Below the pieces are notes generated by a model that saw only the letters and a list, made by a program, of their open reading frames with translations, was not told the DNA's origin and ran no database searches. Positions 1 to 9,042 of a stretch of DNA of 36,974 nucleotides are shown here, piece after piece; positions within the stretch are counted from its first letter, which is position 1; the number at the start of each line of letters is the position of its first letter. The stretch is from positions 1 to 36,974 of the forward strand of contig CALVKF010000011.1 of the NCBI GenBank assembly GCA_944332555.1, given 5' to 3'. Both the position numbers and the translations under genes were made by a program. This DNA is from an uncultured Bacilli bacterium. Its GTDB lineage: Bacteria > Bacillota_I > Bacilli_A > RF39 > UBA660.

Positions 1-498
1 TTTTGATAGATTATCTTATGTTGATAAAGAACATATTGAAATTATTAGTGATACTAATAATACTTAATTATCAATTAAAGATATGATAAAAGATCCAATA
101 ATATTAAAGACAGATAAAAATATGGATAAAATTAATGAACAAGCAATTCACAAATATATCATATCTTTACTGGAAGATAAATTTCTAGAATTAGGTACCG
201 GATTTGCTCTTATAGGTCATGAATATAAAATACATATAGATAATAAGACTAAAAACAAGATTTATTATTCTTTAATTATAAATTAAATGCCTTTGTAGTA
301 GTAGAAGTTAAAACCAGAAAAATAAAACATACTGATATAGGACAATTAATTTTTTATGTTAACTATATAGAAAATAATATAAAAGACATTAATCATAATA
401 AAACAATAGGATTATTAATAGTTAAAGAAAACGATGAATATATTATTAAATATACTACAAGCGATGATATTTTAGTTACTACTTATGCTTTAAATTAA
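1..498 (+). pseudogene. Decayed DUF1016 (YhcG-like) PDDEXK nuclease, C-terminal part
   Basis: This is the 3' part of a third tandem copy of the nuclease family found at 510-1394 and 1403-2293; its 5' end lies outside the window. The frame starting at position 2 has a stop TAA at 65-67, reopens at ATG 83, then is lost near 259-286, where about one base is missing. Reading continues in the frame of position 289, with a VVVEVK segment matching the family's E-x-K catalytic motif, and ends with TAA at 496-498. The frameshift falls on the stretch that in the paralogues holds the catalytic Asp (YIDLLLYN). With both a stop and a frameshift it should be inactive. It ends 11 nt before the next copy and shows the array formed by duplication. 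Confidence 0.8.
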
Positions 499-509
499 AT
501 GGAGGAATT

Positions 510-1394
510 ATGAATTATTATAACGAAATTAAAAATGAATTAATAAATAATGAGATAACTAAAAAAGTAAAAGATTATAGTAAGAACAAAAGTGATCTTA
601 CTACTTATTATAATGTCGGTAAGTTGTTAAGTGAAGCTGGTAAGCATTATGGTGAAGGTATTATTAAGAATTTCTCTTTGAAATTAATTAATGAAGTTGG
701 TAAAAAGTACAATACAACTACATTAAAAAGAATGCGCCAATTTTATTGGTTAATTGAAAAAGGTGCCCCTTTAGGGCACCAATTAACATGGAGTCACTAT
801 AGAGAATTGTTGCCTATAAAAGATATTAATGAAATAAAATACTATATTCATATTAGTGAAGAACAAAATCTTACTAGAGATGAATTAAAAAGCAGAATTA
901 AAAGTGATGAATATAATAGATTGCCTATTGAATTTAAAGAAAAAATAATATCTAAAGAAGAATTAATAATTAAAGATTTTATTAAGAATCCTATTATTAT
1001 TAAAAATAATACAAATAAAGAAATAATTTCTGAAAAGGTATTACATCAACTTATCCTAGAAGATTTAGATAATTTTTTAAAAGAACTAGGTAATTCATTT
1101 TGTTATATTGCTAATGAATATAAAATAAAAATTGATAATAGATATAATTATATTGATTTACTTTTATATAATATTGAGTTTAACTGCTATGTTGTTGTAG
1201 AACTTAAAATTACTGAACTTAAAAAAGAACACATTGGACAAATTGAAGTATATATCAATTATATTGATAAAACTTTAAGAAAAGTAACTCAGGATAAAAC
1301 AATAGGTATTATTATCTGTAAAAAAGATAATAAGTTTATAATGGAGTATTGTAGTGATTCCAGAATACTTGCTAGAGAATATCAAGAAATATAA
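510..1394 (+). CDS. DUF1016 family PDDEXK nuclease (YhcG-like), tandem copy 1
   Basis: A 294-residue protein with an N-terminal DUF1016_N helical/winged-helix region (about 1-140) and a C-terminal PDDEXK nuclease fold (about 170-290). Visible catalytic residues are Asp216 in YIDLLLYN and Glu231-x-Lys233 in VVVELK, followed by the HIGQIEVYINY helix. YhcG-type proteins are predicted nucleases of unsettled role, often beside restriction-modification or mobile genes. ATG at 510 follows GGAGG (501-505) at good spacing. The first 26 residues are identical to those of the next gene, only 8 nt downstream. Residues 85-90 (GAPLGH), just before QLTWSHY, are encoded by a 19-nt inverted repeat absent from the paralogue at nucleotide level. 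The function of the pair is unknown. Confidence 0.85.
   Translation: MNYYNEIKNELINNEITKKVKDYSKNKSDLTTYYNVGKLLSEAGKHYGEGIIKNFSLKLINEVGKKYNTTTLKRMRQFYWLIEKGAPLGHQLTWSHYRELLPIKDINEIKYYIHISEEQNLTRDELKSRIKSDEYNRLPIEFKEKIISKEELIIKDFIKNPIIIKNNTNKEIISEKVLHQLILEDLDNFLKELGNSFCYIANEYKIKIDNRYNYIDLLLYNIEFNCYVVVELKITELKKEHIGQIEVYINYIDKTLRKVTQDKTIGIIICKKDNKFIMEYCSDSRILAREYQEI
762..780. repeat. In-frame palindrome inside DUF1016 copy 1
   Basis: GGTGCCCCTTTAGGGCACC: 7-bp perfect arms and a 5-nt centre. It starts exactly on a codon boundary (codon 85) and is followed by AA-TTA-ACA-TGG (QLTW). It is GC-rich in a very AT-rich gene and sits at the position homologous to the unrelated palindrome at 1661-1679. Confidence 0.9.
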
Positions 1395-1402
1395 GGAGGA
1401 CT

Positions 1403-2293
1403 ATGAATTATTATAATGAAATAAAAAATGAATTAATAAATAATGAAATAACTAAAAAAGTAAAAGATTATAGTAAAAATAGAAGTGATCTTAATACTTA
1501 TTATAATGTAGGTAAATTATTAAGTGAGGCTGGTAAACAATATGGTGAAAAAATTATAAATGAATATTCTAAAAGATTAACTAGTGAATTAGGAGTTAGT
1601 TATACTAAAAGAACATTATTTAGAATTCGACAATTCTATTTGTTATTTAATAATCAAAAAGTGTCGACACTGTCGACACAATTGACTTGGAGTCATTATA
1701 GCGAGCTATTATCATTAGATAATATTGATGAAATCAACTATTACATAATGATTACAGAACAACAAAGTTTATCGGTTAGAGAGCTTCGTGAACGAATTAA
1801 AAACAAAGAATATGAACGATTAGATGATAAAACTAAAGAAAAGTTAATTACTAAAAAAGAAACTGATGTTGTTGATTTTATTAAAAATCCTATTGCTATT
1901 AAAAATACTACCAATAAAGAAATAATTTCTGAAAAAGTATTACAAAAAGTTATTCTTGAAAATTTAGATGATTTTTTAAAAGAATTAGGTAACTCATTTT
2001 GTTATATTGCTAATGAATATAAAATAAAAATAGGTAATAACTACAATTATATTGATTTGCTATTGTACAATTATGAATTTAATTGCTTTGTAGTAGTAGA
2101 ACTTAAAGTAACTGAGCTAAAAAAAGAACACATAGGTCAAATAGAAGTATATATGAACTATATTGATAAAACTTTAAGAAAACCAACTCAAGATAAAACA
2201 ATAGGTATTATTATATGTAAGAAAGATAATAAATTTATAATGGAGTATTGTAGTGACAATAGAATATTTGCCAGAGAATATTATGTACTATAA
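1403..2293 (+). CDS. DUF1016 family PDDEXK nuclease (YhcG-like), tandem copy 2
   Basis: A 296-residue paralogue of the gene at 510, with the same architecture: DUF1016_N, then a PDDEXK domain with Asp218 (YIDLLLYN) and Glu233-x-Lys235 (VVVELK). AGGAGG at 1394-1399 overlaps the previous stop codon and sets the ATG at 1403, so the two genes are almost certainly co-transcribed and translationally linked. The N-terminal 35 residues and the nuclease domain are nearly the same as copy 1, while residues about 60-92 diverge. Residues 87-92 (VSTLST) are encoded by a perfect palindrome. The divergence in the middle suggests that the N-terminal domain specifies what the nuclease recognises; this is inference. 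Confidence 0.85.
   Translation: MNYYNEIKNELINNEITKKVKDYSKNRSDLNTYYNVGKLLSEAGKQYGEKIINEYSKRLTSELGVSYTKRTLFRIRQFYLLFNNQKVSTLSTQLTWSHYSELLSLDNIDEINYYIMITEQQSLSVRELRERIKNKEYERLDDKTKEKLITKKETDVVDFIKNPIAIKNTTNKEIISEKVLQKVILENLDDFLKELGNSFCYIANEYKIKIGNNYNYIDLLLYNYEFNCFVVVELKVTELKKEHIGQIEVYMNYIDKTLRKPTQDKTIGIIICKKDNKFIMEYCSDNRIFAREYYVL
1661..1679. repeat. In-frame palindrome inside DUF1016 copy 2
   Basis: GTGTCGACACTGTCGACAC: 9-bp perfect arms around a single C. It begins on codon 87 and is followed by AA-TTG-ACT-TGG (QLTW), the same register, same length (19 nt) and same distance to the conserved LTWSHY codons as the palindrome at 762-780, but with a different sequence. Confidence 0.92.
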
Positions 2294-4158: not shown

Positions 4159-4200
4159 AGCATCCTTTCTTATTTTTATATTTTCGTTGATAACTCGCGA

Positions 4201-4229
4201 CCTCCGGGCGGACACGCCGCCAGCGGAGG
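4201..4229. repeat. GC-rich bulged hairpin between the surface protein and pgk
   Basis: CCTCCG (4201-4206) pairs with CGGAGG (4224-4229) and GGCGG (4207-4211) with CCGCC (4217-4221), leaving a 5-nt loop and a 2-nt bulge. The block 4201-4230 has 24 G/C of 30, extreme for this genome. There is no T-tract on either side, so it is not a standard intrinsic terminator. It lies 12 nt past the stop of the gene at 4241, where a target-side hairpin of a diversity-generating retroelement could sit. Confidence 0.85.
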
Positions 4230-4240
4230 ATTAAGGTTTA

Positions 4241-5812
4241 TCACACTACCAAAGTAAATGGGTCACTTTCAGTTCCACTTCCACCATTATATTCTACATT
4301 AGAGTTTAGATAAAAGACAGGGCGGACCGCAAGCCCGTAATTAGCATCATTAGCGTCGACTTGACCGCTGATGAGCAGAAAAAATGCGCTATAGCTGTAC
4401 GCCGAAATCGGAGTAATTGTCCATTCGAAAAGTCCCATATATAACCAATTATCTGATGTTATTGAAGAACTACTATAACCACTTAAATTTGTTGTCCAAA
4501 CATAAGGATATGCGGCATAACCATAATCACTTGGATACATTAATCCTATTTCATCAGTATATGTTATTGGATTACTACTATATCCCGCATTATTTCTTTC
4601 GCCATCATAAAACGCTTTGGCTGTATAGCCGTTTGATGTCATTCCTCCAAGATGCCATGTTGTTGGTGCTATTAAATTTTGCCAAGTTGCTCCTAAATAA
4701 TTCCAATAATTTTTATTTAAATTTATTGTATTAAATTCACTTGTTGTCCAGTTATTTGAGCCATTACTACTTACACTTGTATCATAATTCCAGTGATATG
4801 TGGCAATATCAGATTGTGTCATGTCTCCTTTATAATAGTCTGTTGGCATTCCTACTTCAGCTACTGTTCCCTGATAATCTCTTCCATCTGTTCCAAGCAT
4901 GGCACTTGTTGTATAATCACTCTTTATTAATTTTACTTGGTATTCGCCATTATCATTTAACACGCCAATAATTCGATATAGATTTTCTACAGGACACGGT
5001 GTTGTTGTTGAACCAAAACATACATAATTATTTGGATTTGCTCCAGCATATCTATAACCATTATCTGCTGCTCCATTTGCTAAATCTGCATCATGGTAGT
5101 AAAGTCCATTATCTCCATCTGTTCCTGTATATTGACCTATGACATATTGTGCTAAAGTAGGCTTTAATTCATTTTGTTGTATTATAATTTCAGCATCCAT
5201 CTTTTTGCCGGCATTATCACCTTGGTCAGTATCAAGATTTATAAATGTTGCGGTAAACTCCCATTCTTGTACTGTTGGTTTTACACTAGAATTAGATGTT
5301 ATAGTATACTCACTTGCTACTGCAAATGTGCCATTGGCAGTTGTAATATCAAAACCTCCTAATTCTTGATTGTATGTTAAACCATCAATTGAAGTAACTG
5401 GTGCTCCAGTTGGATCTGTTACTGTAAGAATGATTTCTGGCTTTTGATCGGCAGTTGTATAAACATAATTATTATTATTTATTTTAAAATAAACATAATA
5501 AGTATAAGTTGCAGTATTATTAGTACTGTTGGCGGTTAAACTAGCACTAGCTATAGCACTATCACTTTGATTTCCCGCATTAGGTCCAAAATTAAATTGA
5601 GTAATAGTTATACCAATATCTTTATTAACATCAAATACTAAATTATCTGGTATATCGGTATCAACATCAACATTAGCATTAGCCCCATCATCTAATTGAC
5701 TTTGAAAATAAGCATAAGTTACTCCTACCACCAAAACAATAAGTATTGCAATACCTAAAACAATTAACAATACTTGTCTTTTATTTAATTTTTGTTTTTC
5801 TTCCATAATCAT
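4241..5812 (-). CDS. Secreted surface protein with SipW-type signal and variable-looking C-terminal lectin-like domain
   Basis: 523 residues. After a charged start (KQKLNKRQ) comes one hydrophobic segment (about 13-33) ending in VGVTYAYFQ, the signature of SipW-dependent (TasA/camelysin-like) signal peptides. Residues about 35-220 are beta-rich, Asn/Thr/Asp-rich and resemble TasA-like modules. From about 265 a CFGS-CPVENLYRIIGV-VKLIKSDYT block leads to a C-terminal domain ending GLAVRPVFYLNSNV...GGSGTESDPF, like the C-type-lectin/FGE-fold proteins of gut Bacillota that are often targets of diversity-generating retroelements. It is transcribed from a promoter at 5830-5858. ATG 5812 is used here; ATG 5806 (MEEKQK) is an equally good start. 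The ligand is unknown. Confidence 0.75.
   Translation of the reverse strand: MIMEEKQKLNKRQVLLIVLGIAILIVLVVGVTYAYFQSQLDDGANANVDVDTDIPDNLVFDVNKDIGITITQFNFGPNAGNQSDSAIASASLTANSTNNTATYTYYVYFKINNNNYVYTTADQKPEIILTVTDPTGAPVTSIDGLTYNQELGGFDITTANGTFAVASEYTITSNSSVKPTVQEWEFTATFINLDTDQGDNAGKKMDAEIIIQQNELKPTLAQYVIGQYTGTDGDNGLYYHDADLANGAADNGYRYAGANPNNYVCFGSTTTPCPVENLYRIIGVLNDNGEYQVKLIKSDYTTSAMLGTDGRDYQGTVAEVGMPTDYYKGDMTQSDIATYHWNYDTSVSSNGSNNWTTSEFNTINLNKNYWNYLGATWQNLIAPTTWHLGGMTSNGYTAKAFYDGERNNAGYSSNPITYTDEIGLMYPSDYGYAAYPYVWTTNLSGYSSSSITSDNWLYMGLFEWTITPISAYSYSAFFLLISGQVDANDANYGLAVRPVFYLNSNVEYNGGSGTESDPFTLVV
4319..4440 (-). other. Candidate DGR variable region (VR) at the 3' end of the surface-protein gene
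   Basis: Base composition jumps here: 4321-4380 has 33 G/C of 60 and 4381-4440 has 25 of 60, against 16 of 60 in the adjacent 4441-4500. The segment encodes FEWTITPISAYSYSAFF through YGLAVRPV and contains codons such as TAC, AGC, ATC, CTC, GAC, GCT and AAT, all reachable from AAC/AAT by changes at A. It ends in a GC-rich GCGGTCCGCCCTGTC, as an IMH-like end would. The composition is seen; that it is a VR is inference. No reverse transcriptase or template repeat lies in the window. Confidence 0.45.
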
Positions 5813-7153: not shown

Positions 7154-7445
7154 AAATGCGTCAACATGTTGACGTATTTCATTACTGATTAAATATATTA
7201 TTACATATAGATTTCACCGACACGTCGGTGAAATTCATTATATATCATATTAAACACATTTTATCTAACTTATATAATTTTTATTTTTTGACATATATTT
7301 GGGAAATTTTAAAAACTATGATACAAAATATATATTACTTAAAACACGAACAGATTTTACCGACGCGTCGGTGAAATTCAAAGTAAGTTATATTTTAGAT
7401 TTTATCAAATCAAAACATAATATATTTGGACAACGCGTTGTCCAA
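7154..7445. repeat. Upstream nested-palindrome module of DUF1016 copy 3
   Basis: This 418-nt gene-free stretch (7143-7560) holds four palindromes. P1, 7154-7179, core CGTCAACATGTTGACG; P2, 7211-7234, arms ATTTCACCGAC around AC; P3, 7354-7377, core ACCGACGCGTCGGT with one flanking mismatch; P4, 7426-7445, TTGGACAACGCGTTGTCC plus AA, perfect. P2 and P3 share arms, and P1 and P4 resemble each other, giving the order A-B-core-B'-A'. Between P2 and P3 lie a 25-nt block (7285-7309, TTTTTGACATATAT then TTGGGAAATTT) and CGAACA (7347-7352), both repeated in the downstream module at the same spacing. Confidence 0.85.
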
Positions 7446-7492
7446 CTTTAAAAATGGGATAATCACAAAAAAATTTGATTTTTTTAACTTCT

Positions 7493-7535
7493 TCGACATT
7501 TTTCGACAATTTTTTTGATTTGAATGTGTTATAGT
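7493..7535 (+). promoter_or_regulatory. Promoter of DUF1016 copy 3 with tandem TCGACA boxes
   Basis: Extended -10 TGTTATAGT (7527-7535) with a weak -35. TCGACA occurs at 7493-7498 and 7503-7508, exactly 10 bp apart, over the -35 region. Each is the reverse complement of a Spo0A-box-like TGTCGA(A). Regulation by Spo0A is inference. Confidence 0.5.
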
Positions 7536-7560
7536 AATACATCGAAAGGGGGTTTTGGTT

Positions 7561-8592
7561 ATGAATACCAAACCTGTTATCGAAGAAAAAGTTGTTAATA
7601 ACATTTATAATGATATTAGTACATTGATTGATGATGCCAGAAGGAAAGTATATTATACCGCTAATTCAGAAATGCTTTATATATACTGGAAAATCGGAGA
7701 AATAATAGTCAAAATGCAAAATGGTGATGAAAGAGCTACTTATGGCGATAATATTATTAATATTTTATCACAAATGTTAGCGGCAAAATATGGAAATGGA
7801 TTTTCAGTAGAAAATCTAAGAAGAATGCGAAAGTTTTATTCTACTTTTCCAGATTATAAATTAATAAATCTCCATTTAAACTGGTCTCATTATTTAATAT
7901 TGCTTCGAATTAACAACGAGAAAAAAAGAAACTTTTATTTTAATGAATGTATTAATTCTAATTGGAGTGTAAGAGAATTACAAAGACAAATTAATTCTTT
8001 ATTATATGAAAGACTTATATCTAATGCTAATACAGATAAAATACTACAATTAGCTGAAAAAGGTCACGAAATAAAAGAAACTAAAGATATAATAAAAGAC
8101 CCTTTAGTTTTAGAATTCCTTGATTTAAAAGATAATGATAAATATCATGAATATGATTTAGAAAAAAATATATTAGAACACTTAAAAGAATTTTTATTGG
8201 AACTAGGAAAAGGTTTTACTTTTGTTGGTTCACAAGTTAAAATAACTATAGGAAATGACCAATTCTATCCTGATTTAGTATTTTATAATCGAATATTACA
8301 ATGCTTTGTAATATTTGACCTAAAAATAGGAAAAGTAACACATCAAGATATTGGCCAAATGCAAATGTATGTTAATTATTATGATAGAGAAATAAGAAAT
8401 GAAAATGAAAATAAAACAGTTGGTATACTATTATGCACTAATAAAAATGAAACTGTTGTAAAATATACTTTACCTGAGGATAATGCAACTATATTTGCAG
8501 CAGAATATATGTTACATCTTCCTACAGAAAAAGAACTAATTAAAACTATAGAAGAAGAAAAAGTATTTTTAGAAACAATAAATAAAAAATAA
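7561..8592 (+). CDS. DUF1016 family PDDEXK nuclease (YhcG-like), copy 3, divergent
   Basis: 343 residues. An N-terminal DUF1016_N domain (about 15-150, including RRMRKFYSTF and LNWSHY) precedes a PDDEXK domain with Asp238 (FYPDLVFYN) and Asp253-x-Lys255 (VIFDLK), so the usual E-x-K is D-x-K. An acidic C-terminal extension (about 315-343) is missing in the copies at 510 and 1403. ATG 7561 is chosen because AAAGGGGG lies 8 nt upstream; an in-frame TTG at 7555 would be too close. Unlike the other copies it has no strong internal palindrome before LNWSHY (only AGATT/AATCT 5-bp arms), but it is flanked on both sides by modules of nested palindromes. Confidence 0.85.
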   Translation: MNTKPVIEEKVVNNIYNDISTLIDDARRKVYYTANSEMLYIYWKIGEIIVKMQNGDERATYGDNIINILSQMLAAKYGNGFSVENLRRMRKFYSTFPDYKLINLHLNWSHYLILLRINNEKKRNFYFNECINSNWSVRELQRQINSLLYERLISNANTDKILQLAEKGHEIKETKDIIKDPLVLEFLDLKDNDKYHEYDLEKNILEHLKEFLLELGKGFTFVGSQVKITIGNDQFYPDLVFYNRILQCFVIFDLKIGKVTHQDIGQMQMYVNYYDREIRNENENKTVGILLCTNKNETVVKYTLPEDNATIFAAEYMLHLPTEKELIKTIEEEKVFLETINKK

Positions 8593-8608
8593 GCTTAATT
8601 TATAATTT

Positions 8609-8882
8609 GAATTTGGCAGACGCGTCTGCCAAATTCATTTATGGTTATTAATGGGTAAATTCGGTCAACATGTTGACCGAATTTAAATTTAACTAATTTT
8701 CAGTAAGAATGTTATTTGTTTTAATATCAAATTTTTGGCATATATTCGGGAAATTTATATTATTATACTATTTTTGATTATAGTTTAAAAAGCGAACAAA
8801 TTCGGTCAACGCGTTGACCGAATTCAAATATAAAAGTAAAAACTGTTTATTTAAATTTGGCAGACGCGTCTGATAAATTTAA
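8609..8882. repeat. Downstream nested-palindrome module of DUF1016 copy 3
   Basis: Four palindromes in the gene-free stretch 8593-9044: P5, 8609-8636, 28 nt perfect, core GGCAGACGCGTCTGCC; P6, 8656-8685, 30 nt perfect, core GGTCAACATGTTGACC; P7, 8799-8824, 26 nt perfect, core GGTCAACGCGTTGACC; P8, 8851-8882, core CAGACGCGTCTG with two inner mismatches. P5/P8 and P6/P7 share arms, giving A-B-core-B'-A' as in 7154-7445. The conserved 25-nt block is at 8732-8756 (23 of 25 identical) and CGAACA at 8793-8798. P6-P7 centre distance is 141 nt, against 143 nt for P2-P3. P5 may also terminate the nuclease transcript. Confidence 0.88.
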
Positions 8883-8924
8883 AATGTATTATAGAAAATG
8901 AACAAATTCATTTACATTTTTAAG

Positions 8925-9005
8925 TTTCATGTCCACTTTGATGTCCAGTTTCATGTATACTTAACCACCGACTTGACCACCAACTTGACCACTGACTTGA
9001 CCACT
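8925..9005. repeat. 12-nt periodic repeat tract
   Basis: About 6.75 degenerate 12-nt units: TTTCATGTCCAC, TTTGATGTCCAG, TTTCATGTATAC, TTAACCACCGAC, TTGACCACCAAC, TTGACCACTGAC, TTGACCACT. The last units read QVSGQVGGQVGG on the minus strand, like the short Gln-Val-x-x linkers of some AlbA-type ATPases, so it may be a gene remnant. The 12-nt period is also four codons in the plus frame. Confidence 0.7.
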
Positions 9006-9042
9006 AAAAAAGAATTTCACAATATGTTAGTGAAATTCTTTT
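9006..9042 (-). terminator. Terminator of gapA
   Basis: 13-bp perfect stem (9008-9020 with 9030-9042), 9-nt loop, followed on the minus strand by six T (9006-9011, partly in the stem). It starts just after the gapA stop. Confidence 0.85.

Follow-up and report, generated by a model that had tools for sequence, protein, structure and literature searches.

The eight palindromes around the DUF1016 (YhcG) gene analysed here are probably, at roughly 60%, the family's own double-stranded DNA sites, comparable to parS sites or operators, which would be autoregulatory and are clustered at this locus. This reading draws on sequence comparison and structure models. The window is the whole stretch of 36,974 nucleotides that was studied, from an uncultured Bacilli bacterium (lineage RF39; UBA660; contig CALVKF010000011.1), referred to below as the host. 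Binding of the site by the DUF1016 protein itself, repression through this binding, and the roles of the paired layout and the spacer core are inferred.

Palindromes at the DUF1016 locus

The locus comprises the gene, the palindromes P1 to P8, and the spacer cores of two palindrome pairs, U2 and U3:

7154-7179, no strand: palindrome P1, arms GCGTCAAC, centre ACATGT; leftover copy of pair U1
7209-7236, no strand: palindrome P2, arms CACCGAC; left site of U2
7275-7350, forward strand: U2 spacer core, TTTTTTGACATATATTTGGGAAATTT ... AAAACACGAACAG; homologous to the U3 core
7352-7379, no strand: palindrome P3, arms (T/C)ACCGAC; right site of U2
7424-7447, no strand: palindrome P4, arms GGACAAC; single copy, decaying in sister species
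7561-8592, forward strand: DUF1016/YhcG gene, 343 aa; predicted ParB-type N-domain at about 34-155 and PD-(D/E)XK nuclease domain at 176-326
8608-8637, no strand: palindrome P5, canonical AATTTGGCAGACGCGTCTGCCAAATT
8656-8685, no strand: palindrome P6, arms CGGTCAAC; left site of U3
8722-8797, forward strand: U3 spacer core, TTTTTGGCATATATTCGGGAAATTT ... TAAAAAGCGAACAAATT; homologous to the U2 core
8798-8825, no strand: palindrome P7, arms CGGTCAAC; right site of U3
8853-8880, no strand: palindrome P8, arms (G)GCAGAC; imperfect partner of P5

A preliminary description of this DNA had reported eight palindromes around the nuclease gene. On re-reading the coordinates all of them were found in place, four on each side of the gene, and the centre-to-centre distances of the inner palindromes (143 in the left module, 141 in the right) were correct as well. 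All eight centres read RAC-RY-GTY. P5, P6 and P7 are perfect over 26-30 bp, P1 to P4 carry a single mismatch in 24-26 bp, and P8 is imperfect. The description of the left module as a nested A-B-core-B'-A' arrangement did not hold, as P1 has no relation to P4 and is what remains of the separate pair U1 (GCGTCAAC). The arms of P1-P4, P6 and P7 deviate from the half-site consensus derived from other loci (AATTNKKCAGACR), and the 26-mer of P5 is identical to the palindrome before a DUF1016 gene of another genus (L365). The 5' UTR of the window gene carries no palindrome; from the end of the closest one upstream it is about 113 bp to the start.

In 395 kb of the host genome (about 30%), a sample that includes several other DUF1016 loci, no RACRYGTY-centred palindrome was found, compared with eight in 1.7 kb at the window locus. 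A pattern search of the whole host genome gave one further palindrome, at a DUF1016 remnant (L366). Since the 395 kb sample is empty and the reversed search pattern, used as a control, had 0 matches in 193 genomes, the eight palindromes are confirmed as real and not due to chance.

Some other features of the window lie close by. The promoter region of the DUF1016 gene (7469-7532) contains a repeated TTCGACA, and copies of it with about 80% identity occur at several other places in the host (C60, C7, C13, C6). Short 12-bp tandem repeats are located at 8923-9006 between the right module and the GAPDH terminator. The gene at 4241-5812 encodes a predicted membrane-anchored, surface-like protein with no Pfam match; its 3' end and the stretch downstream (about 4196-4400) look unusually G+C-rich and contain an inverted repeat.

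The palindrome precedes DUF1016 genes in other genomes

When the flanks of 69 DUF1016 loci were scanned for palindromes with any centre, GACRYGTC-centred ones turned up just upstream of the DUF1016 start in several genera. A search of 193 genomes of the family with the pattern AATTN5RACRYGTYN5AATT then returned 14 true palindromes besides those of the window. Eleven of these stand before DUF1016 genes and two before DUF1016 remnants (L353, L366). The fourteenth (L371, G126:C5) precedes a Fic gene; it is identical to the palindrome of L364, and its upstream sequence resembles a DUF1016 5' region. A random site would land in the 70 bp before a DUF1016 gene with a probability of about 1.4e-4, an estimate that assumes some 450 such genes in the 193 genomes. 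When the pattern was later searched in the genus, three new true palindromes were obtained, all three before DUF1016 starts, and three non-palindromic matches, none of which precedes one. Another bacterial family contributes one clear case (L378), likewise at a DUF1016 start. In viral contigs the palindrome consensus was not found.

The link of the palindrome to DUF1016 5' ends is thus near-exclusive. The possibility raised beforehand, that the modules occur genome-wide without any connection to DUF1016, is not what was seen, and the expected ACGCGT- or ACATGT-centred palindromes do adjoin DUF1016 genes in many genera, almost always a short way before the start codon. The end of the palindrome usually lies about 16-20 nt before the ATG, and in most loci that have a site it is placed between the likely promoter and the Shine-Dalgarno sequence. 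The half-site consensus is AATTNKKCAGACR. Its CAGAC is conserved across genera although it lies outside the search pattern, whereas the search of the 193 genomes prescribed the AATT ends and the RACRYGTY centre, so that their conservation there carries no weight.

Not every DUF1016 gene has the site. The nearest relatives of the window gene, 15 genes at 61-66% identity (L004-L018), have no palindrome, so this subclade does not need it. That relatives might keep the gene without palindromes had been named as a result that would speak against the link, and it holds for these 15 relatives. In the tree, the genes with a palindrome occupy at least two distant clades, with others scattered (5 changes), and the apparent losses in the sisters L321 and L326 are DUF1016 genes that are truncated or degraded at the 5' end.

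Three DUF1016 loci have further peculiarities. Upstream of the gene in L323 (G093:C15) three nested dyads are found in A-B-A order (CCAACCAGTGGTTAG / TTCAACACGTCTGAA / CCAGCCAATGGTTGG), which resemble the nested layout of the window modules. On a Moraxella osloensis plasmid (L391, NZ_CP014235.1) the DUF1016 gene directly follows parA-parB, and on a Cetobacterium plasmid (L388, NZ_CP143326.1) it is flanked by the M and S genes of a type I restriction-modification operon.

DUF1016 combines a predicted ParB-type domain with a nuclease domain

The window protein matches both Pfam families of DUF1016 far above their cut-offs, PF17761 (DUF1016_N) with 7e-44 and 149.7 bits and PF06250 (YhcG_C) with 1.5e-56 and 191 bits, and also the phage-defence candidate PDC-S02 of PADLOC (E 1.4e-136). 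Its catalytic residues D238, D253 and K255 are in place, and D238 and K255 are invariant across 48 sequences. The modelled C-terminal domain is structurally similar to a NucS/EndoMS-like nuclease (Z 12.6). The gene is a member of the YhcG/COG4804 family of PD-(D/E)XK nucleases (PMC1189080), with which it has the C-terminal nuclease domain in common.

The N-terminal domain resembles the DNA-binding domain of ParB and Noc, as judged by profiles and predicted structure. Modelled alone (pLDDT 87), it retrieved ParB/Noc/SopB DNA-binding domains as all 15 best PDB chains, with Z from 8.7 to 3.6; the best match has Z 8.7 over 98 aligned residues at 3.2 A, and the first unrelated chain has Z 3.6. As these Z scores are moderate, the relation to the ParB-type fold would be a distant one. 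The profile HTH_ParB (PF17762) matches 27 of 48 DUF1016 proteins, the best with 2.3e-5. The window protein itself reaches 19.2 bits, against a curated cut-off of 22.6, and three DUF1016 paralogues of the host pass that cut-off. In a profile-profile comparison (hhalign) the N-domain aligned to true ParB domains with E 9e-6 and a probability of 83%. No ParB-CTPase domain is among the matches listed for the window protein, the models show only helices for residues 1-167, and a sequence search for a solved structure gave no credible match.

ParB-type domains bind palindromes with two-fold symmetry (PMC7383237). The description of YhcG/COG4804 from 2005 gives no known fold for the N-terminal ~200 aa and no DNA site (PMC1189080), and DUF1016 is unmentioned in a 2025 survey of the ParB-CTPase fold (PMC12704722). 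In the literature searched no paper was found that assigns a DNA target or a ParB-type N-domain to DUF1016. The ParB-type fold of the N-terminal half and the DNA site are proposed here.

The host has 11 DUF1016 matches in its 1.3-Mb genome and encodes two true ParB-type proteins. Tandem DUF1016 paralogues occur in the same genome (window 1-2293; L339, L340), and the copy at the left edge of the window is incomplete or broken.

The recognition helix varies together with the site

Close DUF1016 genes that differ mainly in the region of the recognition helix also differ in their site. The sequence NLQYMRRFYL accompanies the palindrome (L029, L378), and NLFNMRK is found in genes without it (L026, L028, L030, L319). 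In hand-assembled counts, the motif NL[KQT]YMR is present in 9 of 10 palindrome genes versus 4 of 70 others, for which the Fisher test gives p 3e-8, a value that is indicative only because the relatedness of the genes is uncorrected. Three later cases (L354, L408, L410) also have both the motif and the palindrome. Variants in the region of the recognition helix are associated with the presence of the palindrome.

Sister species show how the pairs change

The same chromosomal place, between a 402-aa gene and GAPDH, was compared in three close species (G518, G522 and G523), and all three have palindromes of this type there. In this clade of four species the palindromes are arranged as pairs around ~110-bp spacers. 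At that place, eight genomes of the genus that are more distantly related have no such palindromes and lack this gene.

G518 has an intact DUF1016 gene (97% identity) with U1, U2, U3 and P4, and lacks P5 and P8. In G522 most of the gene is gone, and P1, U2 and one U3 site are kept. The gene of G523 has a 22-nt deletion; here a complete U1, P5 and one decayed U3 site are found and U2 is wholly absent. The pair U1 is complete in G518 and G523 (P0...P1, about 131 bp apart), whereas the window and G522 have a single copy, as would result if the two copies had recombined, or slipped, with loss of the spacer. The same single change is found in both P6 and P7 of G518, indicating that the copies within a pair evolve together (concerted evolution). 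P5 is unchanged in G523 (0/28) and was lost in G518 and G522 with differing junctions at short repeats. In the pairs that survive, each palindrome, P2 included, has 1/28 positions changed between the window and G518, versus 10% of the spacer.

The layout had been taken to be kept between modules. Among the sisters it is not strict, since pairs are absent, collapsed to one copy or decayed. Nor do the centres right of the conserved block always read ACGCGT, as had been proposed: P4 of G518 has the centre ACATGT. The intact palindromes that persist despite a dead gene in two of the four species fit binding by a paralogue, or recent loss of the gene; those in G522 and G523 may be relics or be bound by paralogues.

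Spacer cores and an element of inoviruses

The conserved block in the spacers is real, with 83% identity over 35 nt between 7275-7309 and 8722-8756. In the host genome the core occurs exactly twice, both times at the window locus, and it was found only in the four-species clade and in inovirus origins of the same genus. The U2 core is related to the block and the CGAACA motif of these inovirus ori regions, and they have in common with U3 an exact core of 19 nt, GCATATATTCGGGAAATTT, together with AAAAAGCGAACAAA. The close inovirus counterparts of the U3 core, present in two further genomes of the genus, sit between the replication-origin hairpin and rep. This 19-nt origin-side element is located at 7292-7309 and 8739-8756 in the window and also in L132, L192 and L200. 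The 19-mer match is better than chance; the similarity stops there and is unconvincing beyond the two short motifs. The pair U1 has no inovirus-like core.

Several other roles of the core were considered and rejected. In a 16-mer scan of a large genome collection for a dispersed repeat, the matches were mostly due to chance and had no such palindromes nearby. A dif site was dropped, as in G468 the dif-like sequence that terminates the tandem inovirus lies at the end of rep and not at the core. A promoter was dropped too, as a -35/-10 pair can be read in U3 and not in U2. A pair of rolling-circle origins was rejected because the nick motif TACTACGAC is absent from the modules.

As separate observations, GGGAAAT in the core resembles half of a Noc-binding site at the sequence level, and L190 (G468:C3:34000-53000) and L132 contain two tandem inovirus-like prophage copies with a 4567-bp period and Zot-like and Rep-like genes. 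This prophage ends at the dif-like AAGTTAACATAATAT at the end of rep and has an origin hairpin with TACTACGAC.

Alternative explanations

Several observations speak against the main reading, namely the nearest relatives without a site, the missing palindrome in the 5' UTR of the window gene, the arms of P1-P4, P6 and P7 that deviate from the consensus, the palindromes that outlive the broken gene in G522 and G523, and the site before the Fic gene. The last two would be accounted for by a separate trans-acting regulator, either a ParB/Noc paralogue of the host or a repressor of defence genes, with DUF1016 genes as its main targets, and the two true ParB-type proteins of the host are potential binders. 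Such a regulator is hard to maintain, however, when almost all of its sites belong to one gene family and only a few of the many genomes have them. In addition, the DUF1016 helix varies together with the site, and the parS of true ParB is, as generally known, a different palindrome; we consider such a regulator unlikely. We find it improbable that the palindromes are 5' UTR hairpins in the mRNA which regulate translation or serve the protein as an RNA target. The site does follow the likely promoter and adjoin the Shine-Dalgarno sequence, and the arms vary yet remain complementary. However, the sense-strand mismatches are 10 A.C and 3 G.U, where an mRNA hairpin would favour G.U, and the CAGAC of the arm is kept across genera, which points to a double-stranded DNA site at the level of sequence. 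In addition, the window sites lie outside the gene on both sides, and nothing reached the gathering score of a family among the Rfam covariance models. RNA hairpins, and with them the earlier idea of a structured RNA partner, were dropped on the mismatch types and the Rfam result.

The preliminary description had also considered a mobile element moved by the protein. That the palindrome-spacer-palindrome units move or recombine as small elements, using the palindromes as their ends or for crossover, would fit pairs that are present, absent or collapsed between sister species and a spacer core that resembles the inovirus element. Yet the units were found at this locus only, in the same place in the sisters, with no copies in the host sample or by the core pattern; where U2 is absent in G523 there is no clear target duplication and the junction is not at the palindromes, and the losses of P5, with their differing junctions, fit slippage at short repeats. 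We regard mobility as quite improbable. Integron attC or tyrosine-recombinase sites were considered because 28 bp can be divided into 11+6+11, and were dropped because at other loci single sites stand at the gene starts. The shared core and AAAAAGCGAACAAA, together with the listing of DUF1016 as a phage-defence candidate (PADLOC), could also mean that the modules are captured fragments of inovirus origins, acting as decoys or as sensors through which the nuclease would respond to filamentous phage. This is very improbable, given that the Rep nick motif TACTACGAC is missing from the modules, the likeness ends with two short motifs, U1 has no core, and no inovirus Rep was found in the host.

Comparison with known systems

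With ParB, Noc and KorB and their sites parS, NBS and OB, DUF1016 would share the type of DNA-binding domain, judged by profile and predicted fold, and those proteins too have short palindromic sites that are often clustered, as here; KorB represses promoters from such operators (PMC11790492). Unlike ParB, DUF1016 has a nuclease domain instead of a CTPase domain, and its palindrome differs in sequence from parS (TGTTTCACGTGAAACA) and is located at its own gene, not near replication origins. In restriction-modification systems usually a separate small controller protein binds the operator, whereas in DUF1016 the nuclease itself has the predicted DNA-binding domain. The self-regulating operons of restriction-modification and toxin-antitoxin systems (PMC3874152) also combine a potentially harmful enzyme with an operator-like palindrome at the gene start. 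Integron attC sites, REP/BIME and MITEs have paired palindromes around short spacers like the window; in contrast to these, the window units have a fixed place, no dispersed copies and the near-exclusive link to DUF1016 5' ends.

A proposed DNA site for DUF1016

The idea of dyad binding sites linked to DUF1016 had been put forward before, and it gains support from the ParB-type domain suggested by profiles and models and from the palindromes near DUF1016 starts in many genera. DUF1016 would join a ParB/Noc/KorB-type DNA-binding domain to a PD-(D/E)XK nuclease, and a dimer would bind the palindrome (half-site AATTNKKCAGACR) in the way its ParB/Noc/KorB relatives bind theirs. The single site between promoter and Shine-Dalgarno sequence has the place of an autorepression operator, a role that its position and its co-variation with the recognition helix support. 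In the four-species clade the site would have been copied into pairs, with diverging arms, around two ~110-bp spacers that bracket the gene, and this cluster could let the DUF1016 protein bridge or loop DNA and so hold down its own expression. The window gene has its sites in flanking pairs rather than in the 5' UTR, so this arrangement may be there for bridging or looping, as with other ParB-type proteins, or may be in partial decay.

A wider version of this idea is distinctly unlikely in our view. According to it, DUF1016 would be a class of ParB-type nucleases whose parS-like palindromes co-evolve with the protein, and the clusters would be self-address sites that bridge DNA and silence the nuclease until it is titrated by invading DNA, possibly a filamentous phage that has the origin-side element in common with the spacers.

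DUF1016/YhcG genes are found widely, on chromosomes as well as on plasmids and phages, and the family counts among the candidates for anti-phage defence. With a candidate palindromic site and a predicted ParB-type domain, a single purified protein and a 26-bp duplex are enough to test how DUF1016 recognises DNA and is regulated. The findings also suggest that a ParB-type DNA-binding domain was combined with a nuclease.
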